Shown here: positions 8,342-31,057 of the stretch, one piece after another | How the letters are laid out: the number at the start of each line of letters is the position of its first letter | How positions within the stretch are numbered: the stretch's first letter is position 1 | DNA from: Comamonadaceae bacterium | Lineage (GTDB): Bacteria; Pseudomonadota; Gammaproteobacteria; Burkholderiales; Burkholderiaceae_C | DNA length: 64,000 nt | Direction of reading: 5' to 3' | Assembly (NCBI GenBank): GCA_027488115.1 | Contig: JAIYCG010000044.1 | Coordinates: 186,001 to 250,000 of the forward strand | Notes under the pieces: model-generated | Told to the model about the DNA's origin: nothing | The model's input: the letters and a program-made list of their open reading frames with translations, nothing else | Database searches by the model: none | Translations under genes and position numbers: made by a program

Positions 8342-8385
8342 GCTCATTTCTTTTAATTGAGTTTCGAGCAAGTAATTTCATAGGC

Positions 8386-8419: not shown

Positions 8420-8440
8420 TTTTCTATACAGGTGTCTACT

Positions 8441-10126: not shown

Positions 10127-10156
10127 TGTAAAAACATTCACATCAGCTGTAGACAT

Positions 10157-10188
10157 AAAAAAACCGCTCAGTCTGAGCGGTTTTTTTT
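10157..10188. terminator. Rho-independent terminator, bidirectional
   Basis: Stem CCGCTCA / TGAGCGG with a 3-base loop, flanked by an A run on the left and eight T on the right, so it can work for phoD (+) and for the convergent membrane-protein gene (-). Confidence 0.9.
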
Positions 10189-10199
10189 GGTTCTAAAGA

Positions 10200-10808
10200 T
10201 CAGTGGTACATCTGCTTTGGATTGTTGTCCATTAACTCGCCTTTGAGTAAATACAAAGGCGCTTTGTGATAAAGAATGATGTCATGAAAGGGATCAGTGA
10301 TAATTTTAGTCATCCAGACTAGGCCCGTTTGAACGTCTTTCAAGAAAAACAAATGAATGGTCCTGAAAAGCAAGCCAGAAACACCCAAAATAAGCCATGC
10401 AGCACCGACTTGACGAACCCATTCTGTCAATGTATCCCAAGGCTCAATCATGCCGAATAAACCTGGTTCAACATAGAGAACCATGGGCAAAATGGCCCAG
10501 ATGCTTAACAGCACAACCTTGCGATTTAAGTTGTAACCAACCTTGATCTCTTCTTTGTATTCTTGGGTGGCTTGGTTAATTTCGTCGTAGCCCAAAGGTT
10601 CAAAGAAAAAATGGCCAGACTGACGTGTTGTCATAGATATCAACCAAGCAATCAATGCTGAGATCACAGGATCAATGAACAAAAAAACATAGGCCACCAC
10701 AAAACTGATGGCGCTGATGAAGTGCAGTGTTTGATTGATTCGACTGTGGTGGTAGTAACGGTGGTCGTCAAAACGCTGTATTTTCAAGGCTTCGAAAAAG
10801 GTAGTCAC
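10200..10808 (-). CDS. Unknown multi-spanning membrane protein, possibly Mpo1/DUF962-like
   Basis: 202 residues from GTG 10808, chosen because AGGAGA lies 5 bases upstream; an upstream ATG at 10862 has no such site. Hydrophobic helices lie near residues 30-60 and 95-150, with RYYHHSRINQTLHFI and SGHFFFEPLGYDE between and around them. The His/Asn-rich motif before the first helix and the GHxxFE stretch loosely recall the DUF962/Mpo1 family (a dioxygenase of fatty-acid alpha-oxidation in yeast), but I cannot confirm homology. Its promoter carries a PhoB-type box mirrored by one for the divergent glycosyltransferase, so a phosphate-starvation envelope role is a reasonable inference. Confidence 0.6.
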   Translation of the reverse strand: MTTFFEALKIQRFDDHRYYHHSRINQTLHFISAISFVVAYVFLFIDPVISALIAWLISMTTRQSGHFFFEPLGYDEINQATQEYKEEIKVGYNLNRKVVLLSIWAILPMVLYVEPGLFGMIEPWDTLTEWVRQVGAAWLILGVSGLLFRTIHLFFLKDVQTGLVWMTKIITDPFHDIILYHKAPLYLLKGELMDNNPKQMYH

Positions 10809-10857
10809 GTCGTCTCCTGGTGAGAAATTAAGGGCAGCACACATTGTGCATGCGTTG

Positions 10858-10891
10858 ATCATTATCGCAAATCATGAAATTTCAATGACAA
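10858..10891 (-). promoter_or_regulatory. Candidate PhoB box and -10 for the unknown membrane protein
   Basis: On the minus strand: TTGTCAT (10891-10885) and ATTTCAT (10880-10874) with spacer TGAA, then AATGAT at 10863-10858, ten bases downstream, as a -10. The box is almost a mirror copy of the one at 10899-10916. Confidence 0.55.
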
Positions 10892-10898
10892 GATGCGT

Positions 10899-10972
10899 TT
10901 GTCACTGAAATTTCATCATTTATTTTTTCTTAACTTAATTGTCATCAAATTGTTAAATCAAGCCCCGATGAT
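10899..10972 (+). promoter_or_regulatory. Two candidate PhoB boxes before the GT4 gene
   Basis: First pair TTGTCAC (10899) / ATTTCAT (10910), spacer TGAA, mirrored by the divergent box. Second pair TTGTCAT (10939) / TTGTTAA (10950), spacer CAAA, followed 10 bases later by GATGAT (10967-10972) as a possible -10. Initiation there would fall near the ATG at 10979, giving little or no leader. Fourteen bases of the second box (TTGTCATCAAATTG) recur upstream of ppx. Confidence 0.55.
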
Positions 10973-10978
10973 CAACAC

Positions 10979-12172
10979 ATGGAAAATTCAGTTGATACAT
11001 CGATTGTTCTTGAAGATTACCCTGCCACCAGGCCTTCATTGCGCATTGCAGTTGTCACAGAAACTTGGCCGCCCGAGGTCAATGGTGTGGCCATGACATT
11101 GGCCAAATTGGTTCAAGGTTTGAGTCATCGAAATCATGATGTTCAGTTGATTCGGCCACGCCAAACAAAAACCGAATCACCGATGAATGACTCTTCGCTT
11201 GAAGAGGTGTTGATGCGTGGTATGCCCATACCTAGGTATCCAGAGTTAAAGCTAGGTTTGCCAAGCAAAAAAACACTTGTTAAAACTTGGACATTGAGAC
11301 GACCAGATGTGGTGCACATTGCAACTGAAGGCCCCTTGGGTTGGTCTGCACTGCAAGCGGCCAAGGTTCTAAAACTTCCGGTGACTTCTGACTTCAGAAC
11401 CAATTTTCAGAGTTATTCCAAGCACTATGGTGTAGGGTGGTTGCGAAAGCCCATCGTGGCCTATTTGCGTAAATTTCACAATGCAACCGCTTGTACCATG
11501 GTGCCTACCAGAGAGCTGATGCGGACACTGGGTGAAAATGGATTTTCGAATCTGAAAGTGGTCTCTAGAGGTGTTGATACAAAATTGTTCAACATGTCTA
11601 AACGCGATACAAGCTTGAGAAGTTCCTGGGGTGCTGATGATAAAACCACGGTCCTGATTTCTGTAGGCAGGATGGCGCCTGAAAAAAATTTAGATCAAGT
11701 TTTAAAAATACATGAAGCTCTGAAGCACAAAGGCCAAGAGTTCAAGTTGGTCATGGTGGGAGACGGCCCCTTAAAAGAGCAATTTCAACAACGCTATCCT
11801 GAAATCATATTTCCAGGTATGTTGTCTCAGTCAAATCTCGCTACTTACTATGCTAGCTCTGATTTATTTGTCTTTCCAAGTCAAACAGAAACTTTTGGAA
11901 ATGTGACCTTGGAAGCGCTTGCCAGTGGAATCCCTGTGTTGGCCTTTGATTGTGCAGCAGCAAGAGATTGGGTGCAAACTGGGGTCAACGGGTGGTTGGT
12001 TGCAGAAAACAATCCAGAAGGGTTTGCTGCTCAAGCAGTCGCTATTTTCAACAATCAAGATGCGCTGACTCAAATTACACAAAGCACCAGACAGCAAGTG
12101 GTGCATTTAGACTGGGATCAAATTGCTGAGCAAGTTGAATCGGTTTTTTGGGATGCCATTCGCATGAGATAA
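10979..12172 (+). CDS. GT4 glycosyltransferase, MgtA/SqdX-like
   Basis: 397 residues. The N-terminal Rossmann half starts RIAVVTETWPPEVNGVAMTL (22-41), the usual opening of GDP-mannose- or UDP-sugar-dependent lipid glycosyltransferases (MgtA, SqdX, Agt). The C-terminal half has SVGRMAPEKNLD (228-239) and the EX7E donor motif (Glu304, Glu312 in TETFGNVTLEALASG). Relatives add a sugar to diacylglycerol or a lipid carrier at the cytoplasmic face. Donor and acceptor cannot be fixed; the nearby UDP-glucose dehydrogenase makes UDP-glucuronate a candidate donor. The 3' end overlaps lplT convergently by 55 bases. Pho-type boxes upstream support phosphate control. Confidence 0.82.
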   Translation: MENSVDTSIVLEDYPATRPSLRIAVVTETWPPEVNGVAMTLAKLVQGLSHRNHDVQLIRPRQTKTESPMNDSSLEEVLMRGMPIPRYPELKLGLPSKKTLVKTWTLRRPDVVHIATEGPLGWSALQAAKVLKLPVTSDFRTNFQSYSKHYGVGWLRKPIVAYLRKFHNATACTMVPTRELMRTLGENGFSNLKVVSRGVDTKLFNMSKRDTSLRSSWGADDKTTVLISVGRMAPEKNLDQVLKIHEALKHKGQEFKLVMVGDGPLKEQFQQRYPEIIFPGMLSQSNLATYYASSDLFVFPSQTETFGNVTLEALASGIPVLAFDCAAARDWVQTGVNGWLVAENNPEGFAAQAVAIFNNQDALTQITQSTRQQVVHLDWDQIAEQVESVFWDAIRMR

Positions 12173-13368
12173 ATCATGCCCAAGGTCATGACAGATCCCA
12201 TGATCAGCATCACCCAGTGAAGAGGTAGTTCCAGGGCCAACAGGCCGCTGTAAACACCCAACATCACCATGACGCTGGCGTTTTCATTGAAACCTTGTAC
12301 GGCAATCGACCTGCCTGCTGTTAACAGCTTGTAGCCCCGGTTCTGTAACAGCGCATTCATGGGCACCATCAGCATGCCTCCTGCAAAACCAGTGACCAAC
12401 ATCAGAGGAATCGCAATCCAAAGTGATGATGAAAATGCCAATGCCGGTAAGGACAAACCCAGCCATAGGCCTAGCGGCAGAACCCTGGTAGCGTTTTGAA
12501 GTGCCACATAGTGTCCAGCCACGCCAGCGCCAAAAATAACGCCAAAAGCAACGACAGCCTGAAGCAAGCTGGCTTGCTCCAAGGGCATGTTCAAAGCTTC
12601 CTTGGCCCAAAGCAAAACTGCGAATTGGACCACTGCACCAATGCCCCAAAAAAGTGTGGTCACTGCGAGAGTTAGTTGACCGATAGGATCTTGCCAAAGA
12701 ATTCGATTGCTTTGGATGAAATTTTTGAACAGCGCGATAGGTTTCATACTTTCTTGAACATATCGAATGTTTGGGTTAGGTATGCCGAAGTTCAAAAGAC
12801 CTGCAATGCTGTAGATCACGATCAAGGAAAGCAATGGACCCGCATATTGGGTGTCAAGATCAAGCCCTAACATCTCAATGAATGACAAATTCAGTGTTGA
12901 CATCCATCCAAAGCTTTTTGAGGCAACAAGCAAGCCCCCGCATGCAGTCCCCAAAATGACCGCCATGACCACAGTGACTTCAAGCCATCCATTCGCTTTC
13001 ACCAACTGCTCTGCGGGTACTGTTTCTGTCACTAAACCATATTTAGCAGGCGCATAGGCAGAGGCGGCCATGCCAGCGATGGCGAATGCAAGCATCGGAT
13101 GAAAAGGCGTGAAAATAAATGCCACTCCCACCACTTTGAGCGCGTTCATGCAGGCCATGAGTTTGGCTTTAGGAAACGCGTCAGCCAATGGCCCCATCAG
13201 CGGCGCTAAAAAAACATAAGACAGCGTGAATGAAAATTTGAGCAAAGGCGCCCACCACCCTGGATAACCTTGCTCATAAAGAAATGCAATGCCCAAAATA
13301 AGCAGCGCATTGTCTGCCAAACCTGAAGCGAATTGAGCGCTAATCAGGTAAAAGAATCCTTTGGGCAT
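12118..13368 (-). CDS. lplT: Lysophospholipid transporter LplT (MFS)
   Basis: 416 residues, about 12 hydrophobic segments. The opening FFYLISAQFASGLADNALLILGIAFL and the following APLMGPLADAFPKAKLM loop are typical of LplT, the major-facilitator flippase that brings lysophospholipids back to the inner leaflet. The usual Aas acyltransferase partner is not in view. It starts 3 bases after the ugd stop, so it is co-transcribed with ugd. Its last 18 codons overlap the end of the GT4 gene on the other strand. In E. coli this transporter serves phosphatidylethanolamine repair; here it may take part in lipid turnover during phosphate shortage (inference). Confidence 0.88.
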   Translation of the reverse strand: MPKGFFYLISAQFASGLADNALLILGIAFLYEQGYPGWWAPLLKFSFTLSYVFLAPLMGPLADAFPKAKLMACMNALKVVGVAFIFTPFHPMLAFAIAGMAASAYAPAKYGLVTETVPAEQLVKANGWLEVTVVMAVILGTACGGLLVASKSFGWMSTLNLSFIEMLGLDLDTQYAGPLLSLIVIYSIAGLLNFGIPNPNIRYVQESMKPIALFKNFIQSNRILWQDPIGQLTLAVTTLFWGIGAVVQFAVLLWAKEALNMPLEQASLLQAVVAFGVIFGAGVAGHYVALQNATRVLPLGLWLGLSLPALAFSSSLWIAIPLMLVTGFAGGMLMVPMNALLQNRGYKLLTAGRSIAVQGFNENASVMVMLGVYSGLLALELPLHWVMLIMGSVMTLGMIYLMRMASQKTDSTCSAI

Positions 13369-13371
13369 CTT

Positions 13372-14790
13372 TTATGCCGATGTTTCTGCTTGTTGGATAG
13401 GAGAAACTGCTTTGAAGTGATGCGCCAATTGATTGCGACGTCCAATGCCTTGGTAAGCGATGCCTAAATCTTCGAGCATTTTGGGATCGTACAAATTGCG
13501 CCCATCCAAAATCAAAGGCTGGTTCATGCGCTCTTTGAGCAATTCAAAATCTGGATGATGGAAGGTTTTCCATTCAGTGACAACCAAAAGCGCATCAGCA
13601 TTGTTAGTTGCATCGTAGGCTGTTTCTGCCAAACTGAAACGACTGAGTTCTTCTTCATTTTGAATGTCATGAGACACGGCTTCGTATCCCTCTTTGGAGG
13701 CCAAAGGATCAAAGGCGCAGACAGTGGCACCGCGTTTTAACAATTCTTGAATGATGATGCGGCTAGGCGCTTCACGCATATCGTCGGTGTTTGGCTTGAA
13801 AGACAAGCCCCAAATAGCAAATTTGAGGCCTTGGAGGTCTTGCCCAAAGTGATAGGTTAATCGGGAGACTAAAAGGGTTTTTTGCTGGTCGTTGACATTC
13901 TCTACAGCACTGACCACTTTCATTTGGCTTCCGCAGTCTAATGCAGTCTGGATCAGTGCGCGTGTGTCTTTGGGGAAGCAGCTGCCACCATAACCCGTTC
14001 CAGCGTATAAGAAGTCGTGACCAATTCGCTGATCTGCACCAATTCCACGGCGGATGCTGTCAATGTCTGCGCCAAGCAAATCAGACAAGTTTGCAATCTC
14101 GTTCATGAACGAGATTCTTGTGGCCAACATGGCATTGGCGGCATATTTGGTCAGTTCTGCACTTCTGACATCCATCCAGATGGTGCGGGCATGGTGTCTG
14201 TTAAAGCTGGAATACAACAACTCCATTTTTTGATGCACAGTTTTGTAGTTGGGGCTATCGTCTAGGCCAATCACAATGCGATCAGGGTGCATGAAGTCTT
14301 TGATCGCAGCGCCTTCTTTCAAAAATTCTGGATTGGAGATCACTTCAAACAGCGAGTCTTCAATGCCACGTTTTTTCAATTCGTCTTGCAAACACTTTTG
14401 AACGCGGTATGCGGTACCCACTGGGACCGTCGATTTGTTCACAATCACTTTGAATTTTTTCAAATGACGGCCAATTTGTGTTGCAACTGCCAATACGTGT
14501 TGCAAATCAGCAGAGCCATCTTCTTTGGAAGGTGTACCCACTGCAATGAATATAACTTCACCGTGCTCTACTGCTTGAGCCATGTCTGTGGTGAACTGAA
14601 TTCGACCTTCTGCTCTGTTTCTGGACATCAATTCTTGAAGCCCAGGTTCATAAATTGGCAATCCGGCAGCATTGAGTGTTGCGACTTTATCTGCATCGCT
14701 GTCGATGCACATCACTTGGTGGCCAAGTTCTGCCAAACATCCGCCTGTTACCAGACCTACATAGCCTGCACCAACAATAGAAATTTTCAT
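13372..14790 (-). CDS. ugd: UDP-glucose 6-dehydrogenase
   Basis: 472 residues from ATG 14790, preceded by GGAGA. It has the NAD-binding GAGYVGLVTGG (7-17), the domain-2 SNPEFLKEGAAIKDF stretch, and the catalytic Cys271 in GYGGSCFPKD. It oxidises UDP-glucose to UDP-glucuronate, the precursor for the 4-epimerase gene 4 kb away and for glucuronosyl lipids. First gene of a ugd-lplT operon with PhoB-like half-sites upstream. Confidence 0.95.
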   Translation of the reverse strand: MKISIVGAGYVGLVTGGCLAELGHQVMCIDSDADKVATLNAAGLPIYEPGLQELMSRNRAEGRIQFTTDMAQAVEHGEVIFIAVGTPSKEDGSADLQHVLAVATQIGRHLKKFKVIVNKSTVPVGTAYRVQKCLQDELKKRGIEDSLFEVISNPEFLKEGAAIKDFMHPDRIVIGLDDSPNYKTVHQKMELLYSSFNRHHARTIWMDVRSAELTKYAANAMLATRISFMNEIANLSDLLGADIDSIRRGIGADQRIGHDFLYAGTGYGGSCFPKDTRALIQTALDCGSQMKVVSAVENVNDQQKTLLVSRLTYHFGQDLQGLKFAIWGLSFKPNTDDMREAPSRIIIQELLKRGATVCAFDPLASKEGYEAVSHDIQNEEELSRFSLAETAYDATNNADALLVVTEWKTFHHPDFELLKERMNQPLILDGRNLYDPKMLEDLGIAYQGIGRRNQLAHHFKAVSPIQQAETSA

Positions 14791-14840
14791 GAATATCTCC
14801 AGAAGAGACTTCAATTTTGTTCACTCAAGATTTCTATGTC

Positions 14841-14869
14841 GTGACGAATTCATGTAATTTTCGTGACAT
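14841..14869 (-). promoter_or_regulatory. Candidate PhoB half-site array before ugd
   Basis: Minus-strand half-sites ATGTCAC (14869-14863), ATTACAT (14858-14852) and TCGTCAC (14847-14841) at an exact 11-base period. No good -10 lies at the ideal distance, so I rate it lower than the other boxes. Confidence 0.4.
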
Positions 14870-14921
14870 TAGGTGCCGATCGCAGCCGATCCTCTAATTT
14901 GTGAATCAGATAAATTTGAGA

Positions 14922-14955
14922 ATTTCACTAAACATTCACAGCAAAAGTCTACAAA
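14922..14955 (+). promoter_or_regulatory. Candidate PhoB box and -10 for the phoA operon
   Basis: Half-sites ATTTCAC (14922) and CATTCAC (14933), spacer TAAA, then TACAAA (14950-14955) ten bases later. Initiation would be close to the ATG at 14962. Each half-site matches five of seven consensus positions. Confidence 0.4.
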
Positions 14956-14961
14956 CTGGGA

Positions 14962-15510
14962 ATGAATAAATTTCTTAAAACTGCTTTATTGACGATCAGT
15001 GCAGGTTTTTTTGGGTTAACCATCAGTACCCAAGTACGCTCTCAAGTCAGAATGGAAACCAACGAAGCAACACTTCTTGAATTCCAAGCATTTTTTAAGA
15101 TGCCAATCGGCCCTCAAGGTTTAGAGGTTTCAGACAGGGTTCTGAATGCATCTGGGAAAAAGGTTCGCTTGACTGGCTACATGGTCAAAAATGAGATGCC
15201 CATGCCAGGTGTTTTCATGCTTGCGCCACGTCCCGTGCAAATGAGCGAGCATGCTGATGGTGAAGCCAACGACTTACCTGCCTCAGTTTGTTGGGTTTAC
15301 CTAGACGATCGTCAAAAAAATTGGCTCGTACCCCATGTCCCTGGTCTTTTGACTGTCGAGGGACAGTTCACATTCAATCGCATTGAAGCGTCAGATGGAT
15401 CGGTTGCTTGGTTCCACTTGAAACTAGCGCCAGATGCTGTAAACGCTGCCAGCTCAGATGCCCGTTCACCTCATGGCTTGGGCCAATTGCACCATTCTCA
15501 TTCTCACTAA
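14962..15510 (+). CDS. Secreted protein of unknown function, DUF3299-like
   Basis: 182 residues with a Sec signal (LLTISAGFFGLTIS, cleavage near 28). The middle part KVRLTGYMVKNEMPMPGVFMLAPRP..SVCWVYL resembles the short OB-like DUF3299 proteins that open with a GYxV strand and have a conserved Cys. It ends in a His-rich tail (LGQLHHSHSH) that could bind metal. It precedes the alkaline phosphatase by 8 bases in the same operon, so a role in delivering metal to that Zn/Mg enzyme is conceivable but unproven. Confidence 0.55.
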   Translation: MNKFLKTALLTISAGFFGLTISTQVRSQVRMETNEATLLEFQAFFKMPIGPQGLEVSDRVLNASGKKVRLTGYMVKNEMPMPGVFMLAPRPVQMSEHADGEANDLPASVCWVYLDDRQKNWLVPHVPGLLTVEGQFTFNRIEASDGSVAWFHLKLAPDAVNAASSDARSPHGLGQLHHSHSH

Positions 15511-15518
15511 AGCACAAT

Positions 15519-17549
15519 ATGTTTCATCTATCAAACTCTAAGCACTTACTGGGTTCATTGGCTGCCTTGGCCTTTTTGGGGGCAGAAGTGATGGCGGCAC
15601 CCCAAGTGACCCGGCTGACCCCACCCAGTGAGCTGTTCACCAGCGGCAATGCTGCACCAGTCATCGCACGATTTTTACCAGACCAACGGTTTGATTTGCA
15701 GGCTACCATCGTTCCAGACGCTCCCGATAAATCAATTACCAAGGCTGTTTTTTACATGAATGGTGTTGAAATCAAGTTGCCAGTCTCTGTGAAGACTTGC
15801 GCAACAGGATGTCTGCCTAAGATTGAGAAAAATGCTGCCATCGTGTCGCTCCGTGCGCTTTCAAATACAAAGCCTGGTTTGCATGTTTTCACTGTTGAAG
15901 CAACACAAAGTGATGGTCAAAGTATCAAAGCAAGCGGTAATTTTGAAATTGTTCCATGGCAATTGGGTGGTCAAAAAGTTAAAAATATCATCATCATGTT
16001 AGGTGATGGCATGGGCGCAGCCCAACGCACAGCCGCTCGCATCGTCGCACAGGGGTATGCGCAAGGAAAAGCCAATTCGCCATTGGCCATGGATACGTTC
16101 CCTGTTTCTGGTCAAATTAAAACTGCTTCTTTGAATTCGCTGGTCACTGACTCGGCACCCGGCATGTCGGCTTACGTACTTGGCAATAAAAACAACAACA
16201 ACGAGGAAGGTGTTTTTCCAGACGACACCATTGATCCTTTTGATAATCCACGCATAGAGTACTTGAGTGAGTATTTAAGCCGGACACAAGGTAAGGCGCT
16301 CGGGCTGGTGACAACGGCTGACGTATTTGACGCGACACCTGCTGCCAATGCAGTCCACACCAGCAATCGCGGCGCGGGAACTGGCATTGTTGACCAATAC
16401 CTTGATGACAGAAAACTCACGGGCCTGTCGGTCTTGATGGGGGGCGGTCGGAAATGGTTCTTGCCTTCAACGGTTCCTGGCTCGGCAAGGTCTCACGGCA
16501 ATGACTATGCCTTTTCAATCACGGAGAGCCACACAGCCGATATTGTCAAAAGATGGGGTGCATCTCCAGGGCAATTAGACAAGGATCGTGATTTGATCGC
16601 TGATTTTCAGTTGGCTGGATTTAAATACGCATCTGACCTCACAAGCTTGTCATCGGTTGATTTGAAAACCACTGACAAATTGCTGGGTCTATTTGCTTAC
16701 TCCAACATGAATGTAGCCTTAGACAAAATCGATGGCCGCCGAAATATCGCAAAAGGAATCAAAGGCCGCGTTGTGGATGATTTTGGCTTTCCTGACCAGC
16801 CCATGCTTGAGGAAATGACACATAAAGCATTGGGCGTATTACAAAAAAATAAAAAAGGATTTGTACTGATGGTTGAAGGTGCTTCAATTGACAAGCAGGC
16901 TCACAACATGGACACAGAGCGCTGGATATTGGACATGATTGAATTCGACCGTGCAATCAAGGTGGCTCAAGATTTTGCAGAAAAAGATGGCCAAACTTTG
17001 GTCATCGTCACTGCCGATCACGAATGTTCTGGAGTTGCCCTCATTGGTGGATCCACCGTGACCGATGCAAGACTGCAAGAGTTGGTCAAAGAGGGCGGTG
17101 TTTCCAATCTTCGCGACAAAGTGGTGGGCGTGTATGAAAAAGCAGGATTCCCCAAATACAAAATTGCCAGCGATGGATACCCATCAACAACGGATATTGA
17201 TTATCGACTTTTGGTAGGTTATGGTGCCAATTCAGATCGTCATGAAGACTGGCGCACCAACCCCTTGCCCATGCAAGATGCGCAGCAACCTTTTGCAAAG
17301 GCAACCCCGTTGTCAGCTTATCCGGCTGACCCCGTGGTGCGTGATGCAGAGGGCAAATTCATGATTACTGGCCAAGTGCCTGGTAACAGTGGTGTTCATA
17401 CTGCAACAGACATTCCAATTTCAGCAATGGGCCCGGGTGCTTGGTCCTTCACAGGTGTCATGGACAACACCGACGTCTTTTTTCACCTTGCACAAGCTGC
17501 CGTTAAGGGTGTGGTGAAACCTAACTTCATGACTTCATCTAAAAAATAA
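15519..17549 (+). CDS. phoA: Alkaline phosphatase, PhoA family
   Basis: 676 residues. The signal peptide is LLGSLAALAFLGAEVMAA. The catalytic core has LGDGMGAAQRTAA (metal Asp), TDSAPGMSA (nucleophile Ser), VEGASIDKQAHN, TADHECSG and the late metal His in NSGVHTATD. It is longer than E. coli PhoA because of an extra N-terminal beta domain of about 150 residues and inserts. The frame is open further upstream (to 15408), but that part overlaps the previous gene and the signal peptide fixes the start at 15519. It hydrolyses phosphomonoesters in the periplasm. Second gene of a two-gene operon. Confidence 0.92.
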   Translation: MFHLSNSKHLLGSLAALAFLGAEVMAAPQVTRLTPPSELFTSGNAAPVIARFLPDQRFDLQATIVPDAPDKSITKAVFYMNGVEIKLPVSVKTCATGCLPKIEKNAAIVSLRALSNTKPGLHVFTVEATQSDGQSIKASGNFEIVPWQLGGQKVKNIIIMLGDGMGAAQRTAARIVAQGYAQGKANSPLAMDTFPVSGQIKTASLNSLVTDSAPGMSAYVLGNKNNNNEEGVFPDDTIDPFDNPRIEYLSEYLSRTQGKALGLVTTADVFDATPAANAVHTSNRGAGTGIVDQYLDDRKLTGLSVLMGGGRKWFLPSTVPGSARSHGNDYAFSITESHTADIVKRWGASPGQLDKDRDLIADFQLAGFKYASDLTSLSSVDLKTTDKLLGLFAYSNMNVALDKIDGRRNIAKGIKGRVVDDFGFPDQPMLEEMTHKALGVLQKNKKGFVLMVEGASIDKQAHNMDTERWILDMIEFDRAIKVAQDFAEKDGQTLVIVTADHECSGVALIGGSTVTDARLQELVKEGGVSNLRDKVVGVYEKAGFPKYKIASDGYPSTTDIDYRLLVGYGANSDRHEDWRTNPLPMQDAQQPFAKATPLSAYPADPVVRDAEGKFMITGQVPGNSGVHTATDIPISAMGPGAWSFTGVMDNTDVFFHLAQAAVKGVVKPNFMTSSKK

Positions 17550-17553
17550 ATAC

Positions 17554-18672
17554 CTATGCTGTATTGACTTTGTGCTTTATGAGTATTGGAGAAGATGAGA
17601 ATCTTCTCCAGTGCAGGTTGAACTCCGTGTGAAGGTACCAGATGACCACAATAAGGGTGGCGATTCCGTGAACAGCTAACATCATGCCGCCAAAAGTGGT
17701 CGTTCCATCTGCAATCAAGCGCTTCCCGATGGTCAGCATGTTGTAGTAGCCCATAAAGCAGAGCATTGCCATTGCCAATGAATAACTTCGACCCACTCGC
17801 GGGTTCACACTTGCCAGTTGTACAGCCAGTAAAGCTAAGTTCAATGCCGCTATAAACAAGCCAATCCGCCAAAATAGTTCGCCTTGATTGATTCGCTCCG
17901 TACTTTGAAGAAGCGCATAAGTGGTCAGCATTTGGCTTTGCAAATTCGTCAAAATTTGACGTTTTGCAGGATCAATAAGAAAGTTAAAACTTTCAAATTC
18001 AGTCTGCCTTGCTTCACCTGTTGTGTGATTCAAAACAGTTTGCTGACCTTGATGTAAGTTTAAAAACTTATCGTTCTTTAAGAATTCCACATTGCCAGAT
18101 TTTGCTGTGGTAATTGATTCAGTGTCGCCTTCGAGTTTTGAGATGAAAACGCTGGTGGCTTGATCACTGTCATTTTTCTTTTTCTCAATGAAAAAGACCA
18201 TCTGGTTTGAAGCCGATTCTTGAAATTGACCAGGTGCAACACGTTCAATGTCACTGCGCTTTGCAAATCTATCTTTCAGATATTGTGTTTGGGTATTGCT
18301 CCAAGGCCAAGCAAAAACAGCCAGCAAACTGATGGTCAATACCACTGGCCAACAAAATTGCCAGAGTGGCTTTAAAAATTTAGACAAACTGATACCGCTG
18401 GAAAACCAAATGATCATTTCACTGTCAAGGTACATCCTTGAAAACGTATACACAATGGAGATGAACATGCTTAAAGTGAGTATGGGGCCAGCATTGCCAA
18501 CACCATTGAGTCCAATCAAAAGAATGACTTCTGAAGGATCAGCCTGTCCTTTAGATGCTTGCCCTAAAATGCGGATGAGCATGATGGTCATCACAATGGT
18601 GAACAAGATGACTGTGGAACCCCCAAAGTTCCTAAGAAGTTCTTTGTGAATGCTTTTTTGAAAAATAGTCAT
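17554..18672 (-). CDS. lptF: LptF/YjgP-family lipopolysaccharide export permease
   Basis: 372 residues, six predicted membrane helices in two groups of three with a periplasmic jellyroll-like domain (about 125-260) between them, the LptF/LptG plan. Motifs include IFQKSIHKELLRNFGGS at the start and SMFISIVYTFSRMYLDSEMIIWFSSGIS. LptF works with LptG and LptB2 to pull LPS out of the inner membrane. No lptG follows. It lies 32 bases behind the UDP-sugar epimerase gene and seems to share its promoter, so it may be a specialised paralogue rather than the housekeeping copy. Convergent with phoA, 4 bases apart. Confidence 0.85.
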   Translation of the reverse strand: MTIFQKSIHKELLRNFGGSTVILFTIVMTIMLIRILGQASKGQADPSEVILLIGLNGVGNAGPILTLSMFISIVYTFSRMYLDSEMIIWFSSGISLSKFLKPLWQFCWPVVLTISLLAVFAWPWSNTQTQYLKDRFAKRSDIERVAPGQFQESASNQMVFFIEKKKNDSDQATSVFISKLEGDTESITTAKSGNVEFLKNDKFLNLHQGQQTVLNHTTGEARQTEFESFNFLIDPAKRQILTNLQSQMLTTYALLQSTERINQGELFWRIGLFIAALNLALLAVQLASVNPRVGRSYSLAMAMLCFMGYYNMLTIGKRLIADGTTTFGGMMLAVHGIATLIVVIWYLHTEFNLHWRRFSSSPILIKHKVNTA

Positions 18673-18704
18673 AGATACTCAATGCCGAGACCCTCTGATT
18701 TGAG

Positions 18705-19709
18705 TCATGCAGGCTGCCAATTCACTAACCATTTTGCCATTTCAGCCAAACCGTCCTTCATAGAGGTATGCGGCCATTCACCTATCAGATGCAAGAGTTT
18801 AAGGTCGCTAGCGCATGTGAGGGGAACATCAGACACTTGCATGGGCGCCAATTCAATCATGGGTTCGATGCCCAGGCACTCAGAAAGTAGGCTGACAAAA
18901 TCAGTGACTTGAATGGGGCTAGAGTGTCCAACATTGACGACGTCGACGCCTTGTCGAGCAACACCCAATTCAATGAGACGAGTTAATGCGAAAACAGTAT
19001 CTCCCACATAGGTGAAGTCTCTTTTCAGTAAACCGTCTCCAAACAGTTGAATGGGCTGTCTTTTTCGCATTTTCTGAGCAAAAAGGAGCGGGGCCATGTC
19101 AAGTCTTCCCCATGGTCCATACACCGTAAAGAATCGAAGCCCAAGCGAAGGCGTTTTGTACTGGGCAAAGTAGGCTTGTGCCATCACTTCATTGGCAATT
19201 TTGGTGGCAGCGTAAAAGGATTCTGGTGTATCGCAGCGGTCTGTTTCCCGAAATGGTGCATCTGTTCTTGAGCCATAAACACTCGAAGAACTGGCATACA
19301 GAAATTCCTGAACCTCAAAGTGTTTGCATGCGTCCAATACGTTAGCAAACCCATTCAGGTTTGATTTCACAAAATCCATGGGTGATTTCACAGAATGCCT
19401 GACCCCAGCCTGCGCTGCAAGATGCACTACCACATCTGGCTGAAAAGAACCAAACAGGGACATGACAGCACCATGTTCCGAAAGGTCTATTGCTTGGTAT
19501 TGAATTTGATTTCCTTGCAGGAAGTGAGCAATTCTATCGAAGCGGAGTCTTTGAAGGATCAGATGATTTGAATCACCCACATCAAAAAATTGATTTCTAA
19601 AGTTGTACATATCACAACCTAGCACTTCGTAACCTAAAGCATTGAGGTGCTCGGCCAAGCGAGAGCCTATAAATCCAGCGGCACCAGTGATCAGAACTTT
19701 ACGTTTCAT
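18705..19709 (-). CDS. NAD-dependent UDP-sugar 4-epimerase (probable UDP-glucuronate 4-epimerase)
   Basis: 334 residues, extended short-chain dehydrogenase fold: GAAGFIG (9-15), HLAAQAGVRHS (96-106), SSSVYG (141-146), catalytic Tyr166/Lys170 in FYAATK, and FFTVYGPWGRLDMAP. The HLAAQAGVRxS and TVYGPWGRPDMA signatures are those of UDP-glucuronate 4-epimerases that make UDP-galacturonate; substrate assignment is by family resemblance. With ugd it completes UDP-glucose to UDP-glucuronate to UDP-galacturonate. A palindromic PhoB-type site and TAGATT -10 precede it, with predicted initiation at or next to the ATG. Confidence 0.85.
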   Translation of the reverse strand: MKRKVLITGAAGFIGSRLAEHLNALGYEVLGCDMYNFRNQFFDVGDSNHLILQRLRFDRIAHFLQGNQIQYQAIDLSEHGAVMSLFGSFQPDVVVHLAAQAGVRHSVKSPMDFVKSNLNGFANVLDACKHFEVQEFLYASSSSVYGSRTDAPFRETDRCDTPESFYAATKIANEVMAQAYFAQYKTPSLGLRFFTVYGPWGRLDMAPLLFAQKMRKRQPIQLFGDGLLKRDFTYVGDTVFALTRLIELGVARQGVDVVNVGHSSPIQVTDFVSLLSECLGIEPMIELAPMQVSDVPLTCASDLKLLHLIGEWPHTSMKDGLAEMAKWLVNWQPA

Positions 19710-19715
19710 ATCTCC

Positions 19716-19760
19716 AATCTAGAAAATTTTCATGACACTGTCATGAAACTTGGTTGAAAT
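19716..19760. promoter_or_regulatory. Palindromic divergent PhoB site for the epimerase and PAP2 operons
   Basis: Perfect palindrome: arms TTTCATGACA (19728-19737) and TGTCATGAAA (19739-19748) around one C. Rightward half-sites are TTTTCAT (19727) and CTGTCAT (19738), then TGAAAT (19755-19760) 10 bases on. Leftward half-sites are GTTTCAT and GTGTCAT (19749-19732), then TAGATT (19721-19716) 10 bases on, the same hexamer as at pstS. One compact element can thus drive both operons. Confidence 0.65.
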
Positions 19761-19801
19761 AAAAATGTCGCAAATGATTGATCAATTTGCGCTCGTCATC
19801 T

Positions 19802-20614
19802 ATGAATAACCAATCTCTCCAGCATTGCTCGTCTTACAAAATGGTACTTTTTTCTACCATTGCGTTGATTGCCTGTGTCAGTCTGAGTATTTTGCTGATG
19901 TCATCTGGTTGGAATCAAGTCTGGATGCTGCGAATTCACGCCACACCCTATTTGCCTACTTCTTTCTGGGCTTTGATCAATCTCGGTGGAGACGCTTGGG
20001 TGGCTTTGCTCATCCTTCTATTGGTAGAGCGCAAACCTGGCGAGATTACCTCTTGGGTACTCAAAACATGGCTCATAGGTGCAATTGTCTCGCAACTCAT
20101 CAAATACCTGTTGCCCATGCCAAGGCCAGCTAGCGTTTTGGGTGTGCAGAATTTAAGCATCATTGATTCCCCTCCCTTGGTGAGCGGATCCATGCCGTCA
20201 GGTCATGCCCTTGCGGCAGTTTCGTGTGCTTTGATTGTTTGCACAGTACTCAAGCTTAGAGGTGCCCAGAGTTGGCATCTTTGGCTCATTGCATTGACAG
20301 CGGGCATAACCGCTTGGGCGCGAGTGGCAGTGGGTGCTCACTGGCCATCAGATGTGATTGCTGGGTCAGGTTTGGCCTTTGCGGTGGTGGCCCTAGCACA
20401 CCTGTGGGAGCGTCGGCATTCCTGGAACGCTTGGTTTCAAGGTACCAAAGGCGGTGCATTTCTCATTGTCCTGCACATCATGATTTCCTTGCACTTGGCG
20501 ACACCCCAATCGGATTTCTTTTTTGTGCAGTTTGTCCAATTCAATTTGGCTTGTATTTCACTCATGCGCGCCGTTTTTTTGATTAAAAGATATTTCCTGA
20601 TTCGAACGCAATGA
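19802..20614 (+). CDS. PAP2-superfamily membrane phosphatase (first of two)
   Basis: About 270 residues, six membrane helices. All three motifs are intact: KX6RP (KYLLPMPRP), PSGHA, and RX5HX3D (RVAVGAHWPSD). Members dephosphorylate undecaprenyl pyrophosphate, phosphatidate/PGP or lipid A at the periplasmic face. Because it starts the run containing ArnC/ArnT-like transferases and a second PAP2 enzyme, a lipid A or lipid-carrier substrate is likely. ATG 19802 is preferred over an upstream TTG (19778). Confidence 0.8.
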   Translation: MNNQSLQHCSSYKMVLFSTIALIACVSLSILLMSSGWNQVWMLRIHATPYLPTSFWALINLGGDAWVALLILLLVERKPGEITSWVLKTWLIGAIVSQLIKYLLPMPRPASVLGVQNLSIIDSPPLVSGSMPSGHALAAVSCALIVCTVLKLRGAQSWHLWLIALTAGITAWARVAVGAHWPSDVIAGSGLAFAVVALAHLWERRHSWNAWFQGTKGGAFLIVLHIMISLHLATPQSDFFFVQFVQFNLACISLMRAVFLIKRYFLIRTQ

Positions 20615-20631
20615 ATTGGATGGTTTAAAAA

Positions 20632-21585
20632 ATGAAGTACGTTATTTCGGAAAAGCAATTTGAATCACATGTTCGAATTCGAAAATGGTTTTACCGCCTT
20701 GTTTTTTGGATGCTTGCACTGATGTTGCTGCTTGCGTTGGTTCGACATTCTGATTGGAATCAGACGTTCTCACGTCTGATGGAAGTTCCCAAAGTCATTC
20801 TTTTGATTTGCACTTTAGGTTGGTTGAGCAGTTTTTTGTTCCGGGCGCTTCGATTCAAGGCCGAGTGGAAGTCCCAAGGCAGGATCAGTTTGTGGGATTC
20901 TTTGAGCTTAACTTTTTTGCACAATGCAGCTGTGGTGCTGGTGCCCTTTCGAGTCGGTGAATTAGGCTATCCGGTCTTGGTCAAAAAATTGCTGAATGTG
21001 TCATTGCAACAATGTATTCGAAGCCTTCTGTGGCTGAGATTCCAAGATGGCATCGTTTTAATTTCCTTGGCATTTTTGTTATTGCCTTTTACCAGCATTG
21101 AGTTGCGTATTTCAATTTTTTTGTTTGTGATGTTCTTGTTTTTTTTCACCCAAAAATGGTGGCTGCGTTTATTGAGGTCCCGCCATTTTCTAATTCGGCA
21201 AGTTAGAGCGTTTTTGCACCAAAGGTCCGATGCATCGGGCTGGTTTTGGTCTGCAGCCAATTGGATTGTCAAAATCTTGGTTGTTGCCCTCTTGCTTTCA
21301 AACTTGACAGGTTTAGAAGCGCTTCAAACTGTTCGTGGCGCCTTGACGGGTGAACTGTCTGCATTGTTGCCATTGACAGGTCCTGCGGGACTCGGGACCT
21401 ACGAAGCAGGCGTTTGGTCTGGCTTAGGCCTCACTTGGCAAGAGATGAAGGGACTGATGGGTAGTGTTTTATTAACCCACCTTTTCTTCCTTTGCATTTC
21501 ACTTCTAGGTGCAGTAGTGGCCTTGTCCTTTAATACACTTTCTAATGATCAAAACAAATCAAAGCAGCGTGGCGCCCATGTCTGA
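20632..21585 (+). CDS. YbhN/UPF0104-type integral membrane protein (lysylphosphatidylglycerol synthase TM-domain family)
   Basis: 317 residues with about eight hydrophobic helices. Family marks are PFRVGELGYPVLVKKLL (near 105), RFQDGIVLISL and the late GPAGLGTYEAGVWSGL. The family includes the flippase domain of MprF and proteins next to glycosyltransferases; it is often proposed to move lipids or lipid-linked sugars across the membrane. There is no synthase domain, so aminoacylation is not expected. It lies between a PAP2 phosphatase and a polyprenyl-phosphate glycosyltransferase and overlaps the latter by 8 bases, consistent with a flipping role for the carrier sugar (inference). Confidence 0.78.
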   Translation: MKYVISEKQFESHVRIRKWFYRLVFWMLALMLLLALVRHSDWNQTFSRLMEVPKVILLICTLGWLSSFLFRALRFKAEWKSQGRISLWDSLSLTFLHNAAVVLVPFRVGELGYPVLVKKLLNVSLQQCIRSLLWLRFQDGIVLISLAFLLLPFTSIELRISIFLFVMFLFFFTQKWWLRLLRSRHFLIRQVRAFLHQRSDASGWFWSAANWIVKILVVALLLSNLTGLEALQTVRGALTGELSALLPLTGPAGLGTYEAGVWSGLGLTWQEMKGLMGSVLLTHLFFLCISLLGAVVALSFNTLSNDQNKSKQRGAHV

Positions 21586-22609
21586 CTCTCAGCGAAACAC
21601 CATACAGTTAGAAGCGCCAATGAGGGCGCATCAGCTTTCAGTTGTCGTGCCAATGTTCAACGAAGAAGAACTGGCACCTGATTTGATTCAAGCTGTTCAA
21701 ACTGCATTACTGAGCTATCCATTTCCGTGGGAGTTGATCGTGGTTGATGACGGTAGCAGCGATGCCACTTGGGCGCAATTGAATATCGCCGCGAAAGAGG
21801 TGGGGCCTCATGTCCGATTGATTCGTTTGCTTCGTAACTTCAAGCAGACTGCAGCAATGCAGGCAGGAATTGACTCAGCCAGGGGCGATGTGATTGTGAC
21901 CATGGATGGTGATTTGCAAAATGACCCTCGCGATATTCCGAGATTGGTTCAGCACTTGCTGTCGAATGACCTCGATATGGTGGCCGGTTGGCGCCAGAAT
22001 CGTCAAGATGGCTTATGGCTCCGGAAGATTCCTTCAAAACTAGCCAATCGATTGATTCGCAATGTCAGTGGACTTAACTTTCAAGACCTGGGTTGCAGTC
22101 TGAAGGCTTTTCGAACATCGGTGCTGCGCAAAGTACGCCTCTACGGTGAGATGCACCGATTCATTCCAGCTTGGTTAGCAACTGTGACATCACCGATGCG
22201 AATGGCGGAGCTACCTGTTTCGCATTTTCCTCGAACAAAAGGTCAATCTAAATATGGTCTTTCTCGAACATTTCGTGTCTTGCTTGACCTTTTATCTATT
22301 CACTATTTTTTAAGGTTTGGTTCACGGCCAGGTCATTTCTTCGGTGGACTTGGCAGTATCGTCACAGGCATAGGTCTGTTGATTCTGACTTACTTGGGTA
22401 TTTTGAAAGCTTTGGGTGAGTCGATTGGCAATCGACCCTTGATGTTTCTGGGATTCTTTGCAGTAGTCAGTGGCTTGCAGCTTCTAACGACCGGCGTCAT
22501 TGCAGAAATACTGATGCGCACTTACTACGATGCTGGGAAATTTAACTCCTATCACACGCTGAATGAGTATGGTGCTCAGCCCAATGAGGCCTGGCATGTC
22601 ATCAAGTGA
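21578..22609 (+). CDS. GT2 polyprenyl-phosphate glycosyltransferase, ArnC/RgtE-like
   Basis: About 343 residues. The catalytic GT2 domain has VVPMFNEEE, VVDDGSSDATW and MDGDLQNDPRD (DXD equivalent). The acceptor-side loop QDLGCSLKAFR and two C-terminal membrane helices match ArnC, GtrB and RgtE enzymes, which place a sugar on a polyprenyl phosphate. In Rhizobium RgtE loads galacturonate; in E. coli ArnC loads formyl-aminoarabinose. ArnA/ArnB/ArnD are absent and a UDP-glucuronate epimerase is nearby, so galacturonate is the favoured sugar (inference). ATG 21578 is chosen; ATG 21545 is possible but overlaps the previous gene by 41 bases. Confidence 0.83.
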   Translation: MSDSQRNTIQLEAPMRAHQLSVVVPMFNEEELAPDLIQAVQTALLSYPFPWELIVVDDGSSDATWAQLNIAAKEVGPHVRLIRLLRNFKQTAAMQAGIDSARGDVIVTMDGDLQNDPRDIPRLVQHLLSNDLDMVAGWRQNRQDGLWLRKIPSKLANRLIRNVSGLNFQDLGCSLKAFRTSVLRKVRLYGEMHRFIPAWLATVTSPMRMAELPVSHFPRTKGQSKYGLSRTFRVLLDLLSIHYFLRFGSRPGHFFGGLGSIVTGIGLLILTYLGILKALGESIGNRPLMFLGFFAVVSGLQLLTTGVIAEILMRTYYDAGKFNSYHTLNEYGAQPNEAWHVIK

Positions 22610-24194
22610 AAAATCAAACCCTTTGAATCTCCAATGGTTCTTGGGCGCCATTGCCTTGCTTGGCTTATTTTTGCTTGGTCTAGACAAAGCATTTTTATTT
22701 GATGTGGATGAAGGTGCATTCACGGAAGCCACTCGTGAGATGTTGGTGTCTGGTGATTGGGGTCACACCACGCTGAATGGCCTAGATCGATTTGACAAAC
22801 CCATCGGTGTCTATTGGTTGCAAGCTGTCAGTGCTTCTGTCTTTGGATTGAACGAGTTTGCTTTCAGATTGCCTTCTGCACTCTCTGGTTGGATAGCCAG
22901 TCTTGCTTTGGCGCGTTTCACATACTCGCAATGGGGACCCCGTGCTGGCCTTTTGGCTGCTGTCATCTCAGCAACCAGTTTAGGTCCTTGGGCAATGGCA
23001 AGAACTGCAACAGCAGATGCTTTGTTGGGGCTTTTTTTCGTCTTGATCTTTATTGACCTCTGGCGTGTCATCAATACCAACAGCGTGATTTCTCGGAGGA
23101 AGTTGGCCCTTTGGGTTGCCTTGGGGCTGTTGGTCAAAGGACCTGTCGCCATTGTTTTACCCTTTGGCACTTTGGCTATTTTTGGTTTGCTCATGCCTCA
23201 AGCGCGCGCGCCACTGAAGGCACTGTTTTTGGATCTTGGCGCTTGGTTAACTTTGATTGCAGTGGCTTGTCCTTGGTATCTCTATGCCTACGCAAGGCAT
23301 GGGCAAAACTTCATCCATGGTTTTCTCTTGAAGCACAACGTCGAGCGCTTCATGGGCAGCATGGAAGGGCACTCGGGTCATTGGGCATACTTCTTCATTG
23401 CTTTGCCATTGCTTTGGTTGCCCTGGTCCACCTTGTTCTTGAGTGCTATTGTCAAAGTACGAACTCAATGGCAACAACCACTCTTGAAATATGCATGGAT
23501 TTGGTTTGCCTTTGTGTTTTGTTTCTTTAGCATAGCCAATACCAAGCTACCCCATTATTTGCTTTACGCAGGCCCAGCGGTGTGCCTTTTGCTGACTTCT
23601 GCAGCCTTGTCAGCAAGCCGTCGCTTGTGGGTCTTGACATGGGCTGTTGCGATGTCTGGCTTGGCCGGAATTCTGTTTCTACCGAGTTTCTTACAGCAAC
23701 ATCCTGAATGGGTCAAGGATGTTTTTTACAAAACCTTGTTAGCTGGATCACCAGATCCCCAAATGAAGGTTTGGCTGTTTGCACTGCCATTGCTTATTTA
23801 TGTCGGGCCAACTTTCAATATGGTGATGCGTGTCTTTAAGCTAGGTACCGTCAACAGGACTCAAGGCTTTGGATTTATCTCCTTTTCAGTTTTTCAAGCC
23901 GGTGTTTTAGCACTTGTTGTTTTGCCTTGGTGGTCTCAAACACTCCAAGCACCCGTTCAAGGCTTGGCTTTGAAGTTTCGTGAAAACACTACCACCATTG
24001 TTCAGTGGGGTGTTCATCTGCCTTCTTTCGCAACTTACAGGCAACAAGAGGCCCCAAGGCGCGAACCATTGCCAGGTGAGTTGGCCTTGGTCAAGAACAT
24101 CCAGCCCATTTGGCCTTCTGAATGGGAAACGCTTGAAGTCATGGGACCTCTTGCTATAGTGAAGGCGGCAGACCCATTGAGAAGCAAACCATGA
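22596..24194 (+). CDS. ArnT-like GT83 lipid-A-type glycosyltransferase
   Basis: About 532 residues, a dozen membrane helices. The first periplasmic loop holds FDVDEGAFTEATREML, the acidic pair expected of the PMT/ArnT fold, then DRFDKPIGVYWLQ and RLPSA. A C-terminal periplasmic part follows. These enzymes take a sugar from a polyprenyl phosphate and attach it to lipid A or core. GAGG lies 6 bases before ATG 22596, inside the end of the ArnC-like gene. With the GT2 gene it forms the donor/transferase pair; galacturonate transfer in the manner of Rhizobium RgtA-D is my preferred reading, aminoarabinose less so. Confidence 0.85.
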   Translation: MSSSEKSNPLNLQWFLGAIALLGLFLLGLDKAFLFDVDEGAFTEATREMLVSGDWGHTTLNGLDRFDKPIGVYWLQAVSASVFGLNEFAFRLPSALSGWIASLALARFTYSQWGPRAGLLAAVISATSLGPWAMARTATADALLGLFFVLIFIDLWRVINTNSVISRRKLALWVALGLLVKGPVAIVLPFGTLAIFGLLMPQARAPLKALFLDLGAWLTLIAVACPWYLYAYARHGQNFIHGFLLKHNVERFMGSMEGHSGHWAYFFIALPLLWLPWSTLFLSAIVKVRTQWQQPLLKYAWIWFAFVFCFFSIANTKLPHYLLYAGPAVCLLLTSAALSASRRLWVLTWAVAMSGLAGILFLPSFLQQHPEWVKDVFYKTLLAGSPDPQMKVWLFALPLLIYVGPTFNMVMRVFKLGTVNRTQGFGFISFSVFQAGVLALVVLPWWSQTLQAPVQGLALKFRENTTTIVQWGVHLPSFATYRQQEAPRREPLPGELALVKNIQPIWPSEWETLEVMGPLAIVKAADPLRSKP

Positions 24195-24946
24195 CCCCTC
24201 TGATGCAGCAAGTTTTAAAACAAAATTTGAATAAGCATGCTCATTGTTTACCCGGTTGCATTGCCATCTTCATTTTGGCAGCATTGATCTTCAATGCTTA
24301 TCCCCAATTGGACCTTTGGGTGTCTGGTTTGTTTTACGCGGGAAATGGAAAATTTCCGGCGAATGAGATGCTGCTGATTCAATCTCTCTACCACGGCACA
24401 CCTTGGGCAGGTCGTTTGCTGTTTGCTTGTTCAATTTTTCTTTTGATATTGGCTGTCTTGTTGCCAAGCAAAGTTTCAAGAAGGCATTGGCGTCGTGCAG
24501 CTGCTGTGGTTCTTGTGGTCGTTCTTGGTATTGGATTCTTAGTGCATACAGCTTTGAAGGACGGTATGGGTCGTCCTCGTCCGCGAGATGTGCAGGTTTT
24601 TGCAGGCGCTACTGCCTTTGTGCCTGTCTTTGTGCCCAGTCAATTTTGTCAAACAAACTGCTCTTTCGTCAGTGGACATGCAGCAGTTGGTTTTTCGCTC
24701 ATGTCTTTGGGAATGTTTGGTATCCGAAGGAGGCGACAATTTTGGCTTCTAACGGGCTTGATCGTGGGAGGCGTGATAGGTCTGGGAAGAATTGCTCAGG
24801 GCGGGCACTTTTTAAGTGACATTGTTTTTTCAATGATTGCAATTTGGACTTCTCATCTTTTCATTAGGCTTGTTTGGTTGCGATTCAGGGTGTGGCAACT
24901 ACACCATCGAAACGTTCCTGTCTCACGTTTGGATCAAGATGTGTAA
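24191..24946 (+). CDS. PAP2-superfamily phosphatase, LpxE-like
   Basis: 251 residues, six helices, motifs KX6RP (KDGMGRPRP), FVSGHA and RX5HX3D (RIAQGGHFLSD). The long loop between motifs 1 and 2 containing FVPSQFCQTNCSF has the two-Cys pattern seen in LpxE/LpxT-like lipid A phosphatases. The ATG overlaps the ArnT-like stop (ATGA), tying it to lipid A modification: removal of a lipid A phosphate is the simplest reading. Whether it acts at the 1 or the 4' position cannot be told. Last gene of the run; no clear terminator follows in the 137-base gap. Confidence 0.8.
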   Translation: MTPLMQQVLKQNLNKHAHCLPGCIAIFILAALIFNAYPQLDLWVSGLFYAGNGKFPANEMLLIQSLYHGTPWAGRLLFACSIFLLILAVLLPSKVSRRHWRRAAAVVLVVVLGIGFLVHTALKDGMGRPRPRDVQVFAGATAFVPVFVPSQFCQTNCSFVSGHAAVGFSLMSLGMFGIRRRRQFWLLTGLIVGGVIGLGRIAQGGHFLSDIVFSMIAIWTSHLFIRLVWLRFRVWQLHHRNVPVSRLDQDV

Positions 24947-31050: not shown

Positions 31051-31057
31051 AAAAGTC

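Follow-up and report, generated by a model that had tools for sequence, protein, structure and literature searches.

A conserved gene cluster of Limnohabitans-like bacteria, predicted to be under PhoB control, may exchange a lipopolysaccharide phosphate for galacturonate and is linked to a second LptF lineage

The phosphates of lipopolysaccharide (LPS) are a standing phosphorus cost of Gram-negative cells, and membrane phospholipids are known to be replaced under phosphate stress. Among the Rgt enzymes, RgtA, RgtB and RgtC are core transferases and RgtD belongs to family GT83; the Arn pathway for 4-amino-4-deoxy-L-arabinose (L-Ara4N) includes ArnE and ArnF. According to the excerpts of the cited papers on which this text draws throughout, galacturonate (GalA) replaces lipid A phosphates in Oligotropha, Caulobacter, Aquifex and rhizobia; the rhizobial route consists of a PAP2 lipid A phosphatase (LpxF or LpxE), a GT2 polyprenyl-phosphate-GalA synthase (RgtE) and GalA transferases (RgtD, RgtF), and the excerpt describes some rgtE and rgtF homologues as clustered, names no whole set and does not mention Pho control (PMC7663294). 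In Escherichia coli, PhoB-induced WaaH adds a uronic acid to LPS with loss of phosphate (PMC6358824), and uronosyl lipids made in phosphate stress are known as well (PMC6445935, PMC8528852). Here we analyze a stretch of 64,000 nucleotides from a Comamonadaceae bacterium, referred to as the window, which is part of contig C47 of its own genome (G000), 2.95 Mb. The window carries a cluster of the rhizobial enzyme kinds around a palindromic, Pho-box-like site. On sequence grounds we consider it somewhat probable that this PhoB-controlled module swaps a phosphate of LPS for GalA, with the lipid A 4'-phosphate as the most likely site. New here, judging from the protein tree, is that the lptF gene behind the epimerase gene of the cluster is a second LptF lineage, an unexpected component.

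Compared by description, all kinds of the Rgt pathway (GT2, GT83, lipid A phosphatase, source of UDP-GalA) are present by family, with the LpxF match under its cut-off. In contrast to the excerpt's account of the rhizobial genes, the set here forms a cluster that includes its own epimerase and a YbhN-like protein, comes with Pho-like sites and often with an LptF variant, and occurs in a genus of Burkholderiales. The likeness to the Arn pathway lies in the GT2 and the GT83, which are nearest to ArnC and ArnT both in the curated library and among solved structures, whereas the window's genome has no full ArnA, an epimerase instead, a YbhN-like protein in the place of ArnE/ArnF and, in addition, an LpxF-like phosphatase. 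WaaH is similar in its PhoB induction and in the phosphate loss, but it transfers glucuronate (GlcA) onto an inner-core heptose, and to our knowledge a polyprenyl carrier, PAP2 enzymes and lipid A play no part in that system. The PlcP-Agt glycolipids of Pseudomonas aeruginosa and rhizobia resemble the window, which has a lipid-type GT4, in their Pho boxes and use of UDP-GlcA, but are made on diacylglycerol and not on LPS (PMC8528852). Close relatives of the window's GT83 were found in Limnohabitans isolates and in Comamonadaceae and Burkholderiales metagenome-assembled genomes, so the host is, by these matches, a Limnohabitans-like bacterium.

On the minus strand, to the left of the palindrome, lie the gene of an NAD-dependent, UDP-glucuronate 4-epimerase-like short-chain dehydrogenase/reductase (18705-19709), lptF (17554-18672) and, farther off, the UDP-glucose 6-dehydrogenase gene ugd (13372-14814, likely ATG at 14790), whose product has three Pfam UDPG_MGDP_dh domains and exceeds the NCBIfam NDP-sugDHase cut-off. 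On the plus strand, to the right, follow the genes of a membrane PAP2 phosphatase called PAP2a here (19778 or 19802-20614; Pfam PAP2, E 3.2e-19), a YbhN-like LPG_synthase_TM protein that is a candidate flippase for a polyprenyl-phosphate sugar (20632-21585; Pfam PF03706, E 1.8e-14), an ArnC-like GT2, a putative polyprenyl-phosphate sugar synthase (21545-22609), an ArnT-like GT83/PMT_2 transferase (22563-24194) and an LpxF-like PAP2 (24191-24946), and then ppk. An earlier note, written from the letters of this DNA, had named most of these genes; all those it named were found in place as open reading frames (ORFs) of the expected Pfam or NCBIfam families, whereas phoA and lptF, within the same interval, had gone unmentioned.

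The order epimerase / PAP2a-ybhN-GT2-GT83-lpxF was kept wherever the contig permits (13 stretches, L031-L043, from ten Limnohabitans genomes), and the LpxF-like PAP2 closes the operon in the genus loci that extend that far. Among 60 genomes of the genus, the window's own included, 16 had a strong LpxF match (E<1e-50), 15 a strong epimerase match (E<1e-70) and 14 both; in the three discordant genomes (G005, G082 and G075) the contig stops inside the cluster. In G072, a diverged member, the six genes form a single codirectional run with the epimerase last, and G070 shows the same order as far as its stretch reaches. The epimerase is therefore part of the module, which occurs in two gene orders. 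The genes are one inherited module, kept or lost whole. A chance neighborhood is ruled out by the recurrence of the gene run in the loci of relatives. Beyond the genus, epimerase-GT2-GT83 runs were present in Massilia and Noviherbaspirillum loci (L086, L102, L110, L114), and sets of GT2, GT83, PAP2 and LpxF also in Rubrivivax and some Gammaproteobacteria. An LpxF query against plasmids returned 35 records, every one below 60% identity. In two of four annotated regions examined, from Sinorhizobium meliloti pSymB and Azospirillum lipoferum 4B, a YbhN-like protein also adjoins a homologous GT2; on pSymB (L205, 6952-10506) the YbhN-like, GT2 (47% identical) and PMT_2 genes are grouped next to a lipid kinase gene. 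In G082 (L248, C584, 6478-6681), the short piece of epimerase at the contig edge, past the Pho site, was just 47% identical to that of the window over 70 residues, with neighboring genes at 89-96%.

The two arms of the module diverge from a gap that holds a perfect palindrome, TTTCATGACA-C-TGTCATGAAA (19728-19748), amid divergent, overlapping Pho-box-like sites (19727-19775; two of 17/22 and two of 16/22). Sites were scored against a 22-base Pho-box consensus, with eight Markov-sampled controls. Three sites in the window reached 17/22, against 0.25 expected per 64 kb, and two of the three fall in the gap between the epimerase and PAP2a genes. Across ten loci, 31 of 33 positions of the core TTCATGACAYTGTCATGAAACTTGGYTGAAATA were invariant, and mean identity, 0.87 around this core, dropped to 0.63 toward the epimerase gene and to 0.37 toward the PAP2a gene. 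We then compared 23 regions with equal-length windows, using two groupings of our own: the window's clade, meaning the ten loci closest to the window, including that of Limnohabitans sp. MMS-10A-178 (LimB), and LimC-type loci, which resemble those of strains G3-2 and 2KL-51. The ten regions of the window's clade and five of LimC type scored 16-18, a level reached by <2% of equal-length windows; six of the other regions scored 10-14, and two of these six, L060 and L065, appear coding as cut and are hence uninformative. A Pho-box-like site (29902-29923, 16/22) also precedes pstSCAB-phoU-phoB-phoR (30028-36551, plus strand; every protein over its curated NCBIfam cut-off), and a TTTGTCACAAT-type site was read by eye before pstS in relatives. 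Before ugd, a triple 11-bp half-site, TGTCACGAAAA TTACATGAATT CGTCACG, was read by eye on the minus strand. The PhoB-type control that had been proposed at the palindrome is thus supported by conserved sites, as predicted binding, and for two lineages of the genus the case for Pho control of the module is good. An older module may have been brought under this control locally.

The sugar donor was addressed through the epimerase. Its profile matched 5u4q (E 1.8e-91), labeled in the PDB as a dTDP-glucose 4,6-dehydratase, and the UDP-glucuronate 4-epimerase (UGAepi) of Bacillus cereus (6zl6, E 2e-47); the G072 epimerase likewise matched 5u4q (E 3.9e-113). In UGAepi the substrate carboxylate is held by Thr126, Ser127, Ser128, Thr178 and Arg185 (PMC7984243, PMC12338863). 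The aligned residues of the window protein, S141, S142, S143, T195 and R202, were invariant (9/9), as was the catalytic Tyr/Lys pair, Y166 and K170; UGAepi Thr126 is replaced by Ser, likewise in 5u4q. By its carboxylate network, its Tyr/Lys pair and its key position 128 the protein groups with UGAepi, and a UDP-GlcA decarboxylase is ruled out, since position 128 holds Ser and not the Glu of decarboxylases. No full ArnA was found in the window's own genome, where the genome-wide search covered arnA but not arnB or arnD: the best match reached 133.9 of 777 bits over model positions 8-285, the formyltransferase part, and the remaining part gave two weak matches only, of 25 and 19 bits, the latter being the window epimerase itself. 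L-Ara4N transfer was rejected because the genome lacks a full ArnA. Both related proposals of the earlier note, namely UDP-GalA supply by ugd and the epimerase and a polyprenyl-phosphate sugar route without ArnA, are in agreement with the active-site residues and with the missing full ArnA, respectively. Given the carboxylate residues, the absence of a full ArnA and the nearby ugd, UDP-GalA would likely be the donor and GalA is the likely sugar of the module.

For the LpxF-like PAP2, a candidate lipid A 4'-phosphatase, the best family was LpxF (NCBIfam, E 3.5e-32), with a match spanning 208 of 217 positions, and 26/26 homologues matched the LpxF model. In these 26 rows the catalytic-motif residues K123, R128, R130, P131, G162 and R200 were invariant, and almost no variation was seen at H163, H206 and D210. 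The LpxF profile had no match among PDB sequences at E 0.001. The GT83 matched NCBIfam ArnT (E 1.4e-38) and, by profile, the solved ArnT 5ezm (E 1.2e-44), its sole solved relative found, and the GT2 matched NCBIfam ArnC (E 4e-52, 177 of 529 bits) and a solved ArnC chain (E 6.1e-48). The earlier note had assigned both PAP2 enzymes to lipid A, which is not supported as stated: the best family of PAP2a was the undecaprenyl-diphosphatase SepP, matched by 27/27 homologues, against 13/27 for LpxE. The window's PAP2a reached the LpxE model at E 0.007, hence no match at E 0.001, and at this threshold that model had no match in the window's own genome. LpxE enzymes cleave undecaprenyl diphosphate too (PMC6581854), so the LpxE-like and undecaprenyl-diphosphatase-like readings of PAP2a overlap. 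In a fold search with the PAP2a model (pLDDT 92), Aquifex LpxE (6ebu) appeared at rank 3 with a TM-score by target of 0.74, but nothing beyond the general PAP2 fold was resolved for either protein; PAP2a had a single match at E <0.001, and the model of the LpxF-like protein (pLDDT 90) had none at that level. LPS as the target class, also part of the earlier proposal, gains support from the LpxF-like PAP2, the ArnT-like GT83 and the linked LptF, and we infer lipid A as the acceptor. In three loci that were checked, LimC-type L066 (11455-13017), Rubrivivax L112 (11500-13053) and gammaproteobacterial L126 (~12309-13769), a second GT83-type (PMT_2) gene stands ahead of LpxF; its product may act on the other end of lipid A.

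The lptF gene starts 32 bp past the epimerase stop, in the same direction, and its product exceeds the cut-off of the NCBIfam LptF model (TIGR04407; 319.9 bits, cut-off 230). It adjoins the epimerase gene in 9/10 loci of the window's clade, the exception being G001. In the tree, the LptF proteins of the cluster form a lineage apart from canonical LptF with a support of 98/100, and mean identity was 50% between the groups and 72% and 74% within them; the L052 LptF, which has a wrong ORF start, was left out of tree, counts and mean identities. Among 40 genomes of the genus, again with the window's own, 12 carried the module, and the five with a second LptF over the cut-off were all module carriers. 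In G000 and its sister genome G082 (96% and 94% complete) the cluster LptF was the only LptF found. At the canonical place in both (L213, C36, 5110-6308 in G000; L247, C26, 2967-4198 in G082), lptG and pepA are immediate, divergent neighbors that no lptF separates, and the canonical lptF seems to have been lost from these two genomes. The G082 cluster LptF is 89% identical to that of the window and adjoins ugd.

Linkage of lptF or lptG to the module was not confined to the window's clade. One or both genes lay within 10 kb of the GT83 in 10/79 loci, six of them from this clade, and in 7/41 loci with full flanks; the loci outside the clade were L086, L108, L122 and L126 (Noviherbaspirillum and three labeled or likely Gammaproteobacteria), with canonical lptFG. 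In G072, lptFG lies ~4 kb upstream. Nothing else in this analysis argues as strongly for LPS as the substrate class as this recurrent linkage. A second link between LptF and a GT83 was observed in two other members of the genus, G026 (L225, 10182-13031) and G022 (L227, ~8275-10900), where the only LptF found stands beside a different ArnT-like GT83, lptG is elsewhere and there is no strong LpxF match.

In solved LptB2FG, LptF K317 and LptG K40 touch the 4'-phosphate (PMC6744409). Position 317 (E. coli numbering) is Gln in canonical LptF of the genus (11/11) and Lys in cluster LptF (8/8). This difference has no simple direction: E. coli, which has its phosphate, shares Lys with the variant, and Gln occurs in the canonical LptF of Limnohabitans. 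Group-fixed differences fell on 3 of the 11 LptF contact positions vs 16 of 355 columns (p 0.01), an apparent enrichment that we treat as a lead only. A tentative extension, which we regard as rather doubtful, is that the variant exporter with Lys at position 317 co-evolved with a Pho-controlled exchange of phosphate for GalA on lipid A and displaced the standard LptF in the window's species and its sister, with an outer membrane committed to phosphate-poor LPS.

In the mechanism that we propose, phosphate shortage would raise phosphorylated PhoB, which would induce both arms through the two divergent, overlapping sites, conserved in sequence and predicted to bind it. Ugd would form UDP-GlcA, which the epimerase would convert to UDP-GalA, as their sequences suggest. 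By family and operon membership, the GT2 would load GalA onto undecaprenyl phosphate, the YbhN-like protein would flip this carrier so that it faces the periplasm, the LpxF-like PAP2 would strip the 4'-phosphate and the GT83 would transfer GalA, which would retain a negative charge at the former phosphate site. PAP2a may free the 1-position or recycle undecaprenyl diphosphate. The modified LPS would be exported through LptB2FG with the linked LptF variant, whose role is suggested by the observed linkage. The left arm would have to be on at some level at all times, either through an lptF promoter of its own or in a species living in lasting phosphate shortage.

Several observations weigh against this proposal. 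LptF is essential in E. coli, so that in a species whose only LptF found is encoded behind the Pho site this transcript cannot be fully off. The arrangement in the window's species implies expression at all phosphate levels and weakens a pure switch; the simple phosphate switch of the earlier note is accordingly not supported. Seven module carriers (G001, G007, G023, G024, G025, G070 and G072) have only one LptF over the cut-off, of canonical type, beside lptG, so the variant is not obligatory for the module, and outside the window's clade lptF or lptG was near the GT83 in just 4/73 loci, many with cut flanks. LptG residues did not covary with the module (position 40 was Gln in 14/15 rows and a gap in the 15th, regardless of module), and with looser, disjoint columns the LptF contact test gave 4/11 vs 70/355 (p 0.15). 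As to control, L059 and L063 stood out weakly (score 15, reached by 3-4% of equal-length windows), the scan found no outstanding sites in L070, L076, G072 and Rubrivivax L112, and the ugd region was unremarkable by score (15/22 in the window, 13-17 over nine loci). Both the LpxF-like PAP2 (112 vs 400 bits, NF045633) and the GT83 (132.9 of 567 bits) fall far short of their curated cut-offs, and the nearness of PAP2a to SepP counts on the same side. Full novelty, too, is not supported, as the WaaH exchange is already known (PMC6358824), and so is the substitution of GalA for lipid A phosphate in other bacteria (PMC7663294).

Some of these points favor other explanations. The module might place GalA on the LPS core or O-antigen, with a GT83 like RgtA, RgtB or RgtC and PAP2 enzymes that recycle undecaprenyl phosphate or strip core phosphates. 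The match of PAP2a to undecaprenyl-diphosphatases would fit, and WaaH offers a precedent, in that a uronate enters the core under Pho control and a core phosphate is lost (PMC6358824); among the listed papers naming Limnohabitans and lipopolysaccharide, no title concerned Limnohabitans LPS structure. However, an LpxF-like PAP2 whose homologues all match the LpxF model stands at the operon end, and ArnT, the one solved protein found to be related to the GT83, is a lipid A transferase, and we consider this explanation unlikely, though it is the strongest competitor. It is less probable still that the main product is a phosphorus-free glycolipid, a glucuronosyl- or galacturonosyl-diacylglycerol, made in the PlcP-Agt manner by the nearby lipid-type GT4 (10979-12172), with ugd serving that enzyme and the GT2-GT83 operon as a side branch. 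The two best NCBIfam matches of this GT4 are lipid glycosyltransferases, both below cut-offs, and the genes for glucuronic acid-diacylglycerol, a phosphate-stress product of P. aeruginosa, have Pho boxes (PMC8528852). The gap (10863-10978) between an Mpo1-like gene and the divergent GT4 gene holds conserved Pho-box-like sites (15-17 of 22 in 8/8 loci), a further point against our proposal, as the GT4, a candidate Pho-controlled glycolipid synthase, might consume most of the UDP-GlcA. Such a product would leave the co-inherited epimerase, GT2, GT83 and LpxF-like genes unexplained, and both outputs could coexist. The least probable reading, to which we give little credence, is that a sugar other than GalA (L-Ara4N, glucose or GlcA) is moved to a lipid A phosphate, as in the Arn pathway. 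ArnC and ArnT are the best curated families of the GT2 and GT83, but the genome has no full ArnA, the UGAepi-like epimerase belongs to the module, and removal of the 4'-phosphate would abolish the Arn acceptor there. Elsewhere, the window also encodes phoD, LplT, phoA and a ppx-like gene, and a putative secreted protein of 182 aa, conserved and with no Pfam match at E 0.001, precedes phoA (14962-15510).

Returning to the proposed exchange of LPS phosphate for GalA, PhoB-controlled replacement of lipid A phosphate did not turn up among the listed open-licence PMC papers and their abstract openings, and the excerpts of PMC6581854, PMC11828411 and PMC12186959 contain no Pho-controlled lipid A dephosphorylation. 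Literature listings, as far as they extend, returned no description of this cluster, nor of the combination of Pho control, a clustered lipid A-type set and an LptF variant. The two LptF lineages offer natural test material for cargo recognition by the LPS exporter. Limnohabitans is a common freshwater group and, if the proposal is correct, would save phosphorus within LPS itself, which would bear on phosphorus cycling, surface charge, peptide resistance and the recognition of cargo by LPS exporters.

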